Below, one piece after another: positions 16,433 through 17,649 of a DNA stretch of 64,000 bases (the first letter of the stretch is position 1; each line of letters begins with the position of its first letter). Source of the stretch: Halobaculum halobium (GTDB taxonomy: Archaea; Halobacteriota; Halobacteria; Halobacteriales; Haloferacaceae); NCBI RefSeq assembly GCF_030127145.1, contig NZ_CP126158.1, positions 1,116,001 to 1,180,000 of the forward strand, read 5' to 3'. The position numbers were made by a program, and so were the translations under genes. Under the pieces are notes generated by a model. The model did not search any database. It had not been told where the DNA came from and saw only the letters and a program-made list of their open reading frames with translations.

Positions 16433-16579
16433 ATGCGCGACGAGGCGGAGATCAGAGAGCAGTACGAGTATCTCGCCGAGCAGTTGGACTCCGAGGAGAT
16501 GCGCCACGAGGGGGTCAGACAGCTGTTCACGCATTATAAACGCGCGCTCGGGTGGGCACTCGAAGAAGAGCACATGTGA
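16433..16579 (+). CDS. short conserved acidic protein (48 aa), unknown function
   Basis: The product is MRDEAEIREQYEYLAEQLD plus a second helix rich in Glu, His and aromatics (RQLFTHYKRALGWALEEEH). It looks like a small two-helix protein of the kind common in haloarchaea. I chose the ATG at 16433 because the helix-forming sequence starts there and upstream codons are unlike it. The nearest TATA-like box (ttttatcg at 16284-16291) is about 145 bases upstream, which would give a leader of about 120 bases, unusual for this group. Confidence 0.65.
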   Translation: MRDEAEIREQYEYLAEQLDSEEMRHEGVRQLFTHYKRALGWALEEEHM

Positions 16580-16599
16580 GCGTTCGACCCGCCCGGTAG

Positions 16600-16712
16600 T
16601 TTTATCGCGATACCGAAGGTAGCGATCGGTGACGCTTCGTCTGGAGGGCCGAAGCGTCAGCGGGGACCGATCCGGGCGGCGCGCCGCGGGGGTTTCCGCG
16701 GCGCGCCCCCGT
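16600..16712 (+). ncRNA. candidate small RNA with its own TATA box and two stable hairpins
   Basis: A TATA-like tttatcgcg at 16600-16608 is followed about 20 bases later by two strong stem-loops. The first (16624-16672) has an outer 7-bp stem gatcggt/accgatc and an inner 9-bp stem gacgcttcg/cgaagcgtc. The second (16678-16707) is a perfect 12-bp stem ggcgcgccgcgg/ccgcggcgcgcc with a 6-base loop. No convincing protein is encoded across it on either strand. A bare terminator for the upstream short gene is the main alternative; the promoter placed right before the first hairpin argues for a separate RNA. Confidence 0.4.
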
Positions 16713-16809
16713 TCGTTCTCAACGCCCGCAAAGCTACGTCGCGAGCGGCCGCCACGGTAGGTTCACCGAGCCAACAACGAAGGCAGCGGAGCGTGGCTCC
16801 CCGAGCGGC

Positions 16810-17091
16810 TCACTCGACGCTGAACCCGGAGTCAGCGGCGGCCTCGTCGTCGCCGTCTGCCCACTCGATCTCGAACTCGACGCTCAGTTCGTCGGGTCCC
16901 GACCCGGTCTCGCGCTCGGCTTTCACCTCGAACGTCGCGGTCGCTGGGACGGTCATCGCCACCGAGTCGCCGCCGCCTGCGAGCGTGAGCTCGCCGTCGG
17001 ATTCGAGCTTCGTGGCGACTTCACGGAGGTGAGCGGCGATCTCGGAGCGGTCCTGACGAGTTTCGGATTTGAACAGCACTTCTTCGGGCAT
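16810..17091 (-). CDS. amphi-Trp domain protein
   Basis: The 93-residue protein matches the small amphi-Trp domain: an N-terminal MPEEVLFKSE strand, a helix (RSEIAAHLREVATKLES), a strand GELTLAGGG and the terminal amphipathic strand SVEFEIEW that names the family. The C-terminus is very acidic. Function is unknown. I chose the ATG at 17091 (MPEEVLF), the standard family start. It diverges from the PadR regulator gene, with a 279-base shared upstream region. Confidence 0.85.
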   Translation of the reverse strand: MPEEVLFKSETRQDRSEIAAHLREVATKLESDGELTLAGGGDSVAMTVPATATFEVKAERETGSGPDELSVEFEIEWADGDDEAAADSGFSVE

Positions 17092-17370: not shown

Positions 17371-17649
17371 ATGTACGATCTAACGGGGTTTCAGCGCGAT
17401 CTCATGTACGTGATCGCCGGGCAAGAAGAGCCGCACGGGCTGGCGATCAAAGAGGAGTTGGAGGACTACTACGAGAAGGAGATCCACCACGGTCGCCTGT
17501 ACCCCAACCTCGACACGCTCGTCGAGAAGGGCCTCGTCGAGAAGGGCCAACGCGACAAGCGAACCAACTTCTACACGCTCACGCGTCGCGGCCGCCGGGA
17601 GATCGAGGCCCGCCGCGAGTGGGAGGGGCGCTACGTCGACCTGGAGTGA
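17371..17649 (+). CDS. PadR-family winged-helix transcriptional regulator
   Basis: The 92-residue protein is a compact PadR-type DNA-binding domain: DLMYVIAGQEEPHGLAIKEEL (helices 1-2), the recognition region GRLYPNLDTLVEKGLVEKG, and the beta-wing DKRTNFYTLTRRGRREI. It lacks the C-terminal dimerisation domain of longer PadR proteins, as is common for archaeal short forms. The ATG at 17371 is the family start. It probably controls itself and possibly the divergent amphi-Trp gene; the effector is unknown. Confidence 0.93.
   Translation: MYDLTGFQRDLMYVIAGQEEPHGLAIKEELEDYYEKEIHHGRLYPNLDTLVEKGLVEKGQRDKRTNFYTLTRRGRREIEARREWEGRYVDLE

Follow-up and report, generated by a model that had tools for sequence, protein, structure and literature searches.

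The DNA analysed here, called the window below, is a stretch of 64,000 nucleotides from Halobaculum halobium, and all coordinates refer to its numbering and, unless stated otherwise, to its forward strand. A predicted small RNA (sRNA) gene spans positions 16629 to about 16715, and its RNA product is expected to be about 85–95 bases long. Upstream of it lies an open reading frame (ORF) of 48 amino acids (16433–16579), and downstream follow an amphi-Trp gene on the minus strand (16810–17091, PF20068) and a gene for a PadR-family winged-helix regulator (17371–17649, Pfam PF03551, E = 1.6e-17); coxB is another local neighbour. A sequence-only reading had placed the element near the oxidase genes, which is correct for coxB as a local neighbour, but this nearness is incidental, the conserved neighbours being the 48-amino acid ORF and the PadR-type regulator.

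A BRE-like CGGTA (16594–16598) is found just 5' of TTTATCG (16601–16607), which is the TATA-like box of the sequence-only reading. Hairpin 1 (16631–16658) consists of a 9-bp stem, GACGCTTCG/CGAAGCGTC (16631–16639/16650–16658), and the loop TCTGGAGGGC (16640–16649). It is followed by the linker AGCGGGGACC (16659–16668) and by hairpin 2 (16673–16711), a GC-rich structure which includes the perfect 12-bp stem noted before (16678–16689/16696–16707) and is a probable 3' stabiliser or terminator. The region 16600–16712 folds at -69.1 kcal/mol as compared to -53.3 ± 3.8 in dinucleotide shuffles (z = -4.2), and none of 200 shuffles folded as well, in agreement with the two strong hairpins that had been proposed. 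The bulged 7+9-bp stem of that proposal stands in part. Its 9-bp stem is real and conserved, whereas the outer 7 bp (GATCGGT/ACCGATC, 16624–16630/16666–16672), though present in the window, pair in just 59% of cells over nine copies of the genus and are located at the predicted start or 5' of it. This outer stem was therefore rejected as a part of the RNA and probably lies outside it.

For characterisation of the promoter 121 copies of the element were aligned on the stem, the upstream columns having played no part in any selection. CGNTA at -37 to -33, with which the CGGTA of the window agrees, and TTTAAGT at -30 to -24 are conserved in these copies. A T at -29 occurs in all 121, and the best TATA heptamer begins at -30 in 100 of them. 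The leader from -23 to -12 is mostly near random, T is favoured at -11, and conservation returns at -5 to -1. Judged by these sequences, the sRNA is preceded by a BRE/TATA promoter of the archaeal kind, at a fixed distance. Because this spacing is fixed, transcription is expected to start no more than about two bases away from where hairpin 1 begins, and TATA spacing and onset of conservation together place it at 16629–16631 (± 2 nt), at the base of hairpin 1.

Conservation of the hairpins was assessed in 70 copies found by similarity of the core and parsed with an intact GACGCTTCG, the most diverged copies being inspected separately. No exact pattern had been used to choose these 70 copies. 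All of them share one and the same stem GACGCUUCG/CGAAGCGUC, loop part UGGAGGGC and linker AGCGGGGACC, and the stem of hairpin 1 together with TGGAGGGC is likewise invariant. The 5' loop bases of hairpin 1 vary (UC, CU, CUU or AC). Sixty further loci from an exact 51-base pattern, in which the core is identical by construction, were left out of these counts. While hairpin 1 is unvaried in the usual chromosomal copies, paired changes affect it in diverged extra copies of the plasmid type in two genomes (G030 and G106), at two pairs in three cells with all slid controls at zero; loop and linker stay unchanged there. Hairpin 2 has 101 different sequences in 120 copies, yet its median folding z is -4.5, and its paired changes within the genus, at two pairs for copy A and five pairs for copy B, exceed slid controls. 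By these sequence comparisons both hairpins are kept by selection. Three features expected of an autonomous small RNA gene, namely an own promoter at fixed distance, a conserved structure with compensatory changes, and no conserved reading frame, were found, and the gene itself is very probably real. The earlier suggestion of a small structured RNA with a promoter of its own at this site is upheld by the promoter spacing, a class-wide core, the compensatory changes by which pairing survives base changes in relatives, and the lack of a common reading frame.

The element occurs in all 11 genomes of the genus, each of which has a second copy elsewhere. In Halobaculum halobium the two paralogues are about 114 kb apart, the second at positions 1246925–1247018 of the same contig (G000:C1; L092:8926–9019). 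This second copy keeps the class-consensus linker (AATTCAGGGCGG), which is lost from the window copy. In G000, G022 and G012 the second copy lies 3' of an oxidoreductase-like gene (HLNLFTMNSVEHVSPG). With a 61-base query 148 of 148 genomes of the Haloferacaceae were positive, usually with two copies, as were 240 of 242 genomes of the class Halobacteria. The exact 51-base pattern matches Haloferax, Halobacterium, Haladaptatus, Halogranum, Halobellus and others. The covariance search of relatives that had been proposed beforehand was carried out with a model built from 20 copies and run on a phylum-wide genome sample. It matched 80 of the 81 sampled genomes of the class, with one copy per genome and rare extras outside the Haloferacaceae, and gave no credible match in about 312 other genomes of the Halobacteriota (best 21 bits). 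An origin outside Halobacteria was rejected, as no match there was credible; those in f14 (19–21 bits) lack the loop. Two small, diverged members of the class (G159 and G285) gave no match even at lax settings. Neither viral contigs, searched for the exact motif, nor phage records contained a copy of the sRNA, and a viral origin was rejected for this reason.

Among 143 copies with enough flanking sequence, 73 have both the 48-amino acid ORF upstream and the PadR gene downstream, 26 have one of the two, and 44, which are mainly second copies of Haloferacaceae, have neither. The window copy is of the syntenic type. The acidic 48-amino acid protein (MRDExEIREQYEYL...KRALGWxLEEEHM) is conserved beside the sRNA across the class and has no match in Pfam or NCBIfam. 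Two diverged sRNA copies, located at about 51.4 and 367.9 kb, are carried by plasmid pHLAC01 (NC_012030.1). Each is arranged divergently to a gene for a 325-amino acid protein (phrog_35116, no assigned function), and close to each lies a TRAM-domain gene. Pairs of the sRNA and the 325-amino acid gene occur likewise in G030, G066, G051 and, in another family, G171. The 325-amino acid protein is present in 125 of 232 genomes. Most of its checkable loci lack the RNA and only few have it, and a tie of this mobile protein to all copies was therefore rejected. The mobile copies, which often lie near a TRAM-domain gene, are possibly a version of the host RNA that was captured or competes with it.

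What such an RNA does can be approached from the parts which do not change. With moderate confidence it is regarded as an independently transcribed non-coding RNA, one of two paralogues, which would act in trans via its loop and linker; for trans action through loop and linker, taken by itself, the chances are about even. The invariant and exposed G-rich loop (UGGAGGGC) and the single-stranded linker (AGCGGGGACC) would form a contact surface, which may pair with a C-rich target RNA or bind a dedicated RNA-binding protein, and hairpin 2, with its freely drifting sequence, would end and protect the transcript. As loop and linker show almost no change, one fixed partner or many simultaneous targets may be assumed, which suggests a housekeeping or global regulator and not a niche regulator. 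Against this reading, pairing in cis with the beginnings of the two adjacent genes, for PadR and for the 48-amino acid protein, gave a mean z of about 0, and complementarity to the rRNA operon was at chance level.

A somewhat unlikely alternative is that the RNA is sequestering or bound by a protein, in the manner of CsrB/RsmZ or 6S RNA, with the invariant loop and linker as putative site for one RNA-binding protein. The near absence of change in loop and linker would suit a fixed protein partner, a GGA is exposed in a hairpin loop as in the bacterial RNAs of the CsrB/RsmZ type and a GGGGA occurs in single strand, and TRAM-domain genes, which are of the RNA chaperone type, are found near two diverged plasmid copies. 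RNAs of the CsrB/RsmZ type have several GGA-loop hairpins, however, whereas the window RNA has a single one, the match to RsmW reached 16.6 bits as compared to a cut-off of 52, and no TRAM gene was seen beside the chromosomal copies inspected.

It has also to be considered that the GGAGG of the loop, which is present in every copy, acts as an imitation Shine-Dalgarno sequence, tuning or parking ribosomes by pairing with the anti-Shine-Dalgarno sequence of 16S rRNA (CACCUCC). The 16S 3' end of the Halobaculum halobium genome reads GGATCACCTCC, and sRNAs which are occupied by ribosomes and yield no protein product, such as sRNA_60 and sRNA_61 (111 nt), are abundant in H. volcanii (PMC12482152). 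The match comprises only 5 bp, however, complementarity to the rRNA operon did not rise above the level of shuffled queries, and the conserved stretch reaches well past GGAGG, which together make such a ribosome-binding RNA distinctly unlikely as compared to the trans-acting RNA preferred here.

A very improbable reading is a leaderless mRNA starting with GUG ACG CUU CG, which would encode a tiny protein. An NTG at -2 to 0, at leaderless distance from the TATA box, is present in 115 of 121 copies, and 102 of 121 frames are free of stop codons over the stretch read, an early stop thus being absent from most copies. Six copies lack the start codon, however, the stop codon is not conserved, all codon positions are equally frozen, and the core occurs in forms of 28 and 29 bases, which would give different peptides after residue 4. 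Because this one-base change in loop length breaks any common reading frame, the RNA is taken to be non-coding, the coding reading was rejected, and the statement of the sequence-only reading that no good protein is encoded here proved sound. An element without a transcript of its own, serving the upstream 48-amino acid gene as terminator or as part of its 3' UTR, would agree with the position of the sRNA 3' of this ORF (median distance 74 bases, 74 copies), but is extremely improbable in view of the own promoter with its fixed spacing and of the second copies, which lack the ORF and retain promoter and core.

Carried furthest, the non-coding RNA preferred here would be a class-wide haloarchaeal housekeeping RNA with its fixed GGAGGG loop and AGCGGGGACC linker as binding site for the ribosome or for a dedicated protein. 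It would have been duplicated in the Haloferacaceae and captured by plasmids, whose diverged copies would be decoys or rivals. This extended version is unlikely. If true, the RNA would have a spread comparable to that of RNase P or SRP RNA. In any case the family yields a covariance model and a testable contact surface, bearing on the question of a conserved global regulatory or ribosome-linked archaeal sRNA.

Search of Rfam 15 at gathering and lax thresholds gave chance matches only, the best being CC1840 with 26.6 bits as compared to a cut-off of 50, and the family described here fills this gap in Rfam. In 16631–16718 there is no ACA as in H/ACA guide RNAs, and neither an RUGAUGA nor a CUGA box as in C/D box guide RNAs. 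Methanosarcina sRNA162 (PMC3510493) is an archaeal intergenic sRNA which acts in trans, an action only inferred for the window RNA; the window RNA matched no Rfam sRNA family and was not found outside Halobacteria. HVO_2908s and H3.2 are sRNAs enriched in extracellular vesicles and common to H. volcanii and Hbt. salinarum (PMC10927574). By description only, they resemble the window RNA in being intergenic and conserved across distant haloarchaea. As a separate observation, the length of sRNA_61 and a stop-free frame of 32 codons would fit the first Haloferax copy, a likeness in length and frame only.

The closest counterpart is found for the second copy in Haloferax (L220:5824, plus strand). 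On its 5' side are located, in this order, a gene recognised by its sequence as cetZ1 and, further along, a TrkA-type gene, an ORF of 80 codons, and a minus-strand ORF of 166 amino acids. An inner start in the 80-codon ORF yields a protein of 78 amino acids, like HVO_2212. As CetZ1 is HVO_2204 (PMC10927574) and HVO_2212 has 78 amino acids (PMC12850539), the second Haloferax copy should lie just after HVO_2213. A different sRNA, H225.2R (HVO_1727s2), was rejected as a candidate for this copy, which is near cetZ1 in a stretch without a tbp gene. Gene order, and not sequence, identifies the second Haloferax copy with hts10 (HVO_2213s), a forward-strand sRNA of 161 nt that was detected by sequencing (Heyer et al. 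2012; PMC3956466). The two agree in genomic place and strand, which applies to this Haloferax copy and not to the window copy. For the first Haloferax copy, which is of the window type, no published name was found. The annotated 161 nt compare with about 85–95 bases predicted for the window RNA, and the text of PMC3956466 describes no two-hairpin core and no paralogue. hts10 was reported from 18 other haloarchaea, and its single deletion had mild phenotypes, namely a prolonged lag phase on acetate and slight changes in yield (PMC3956466). Such a mild phenotype counts against the reading preferred here, yet the second paralogue would remain in that deletion. Of 27 haloarchaeal sRNAs tested, 22 were confined to one model species, and conservation and importance seemed unrelated (PMC3956466). 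The window RNA represents the opposite case, being near-universal in its class with an almost frozen stretch of 38 bases which comprises hairpin 1 and the linker.
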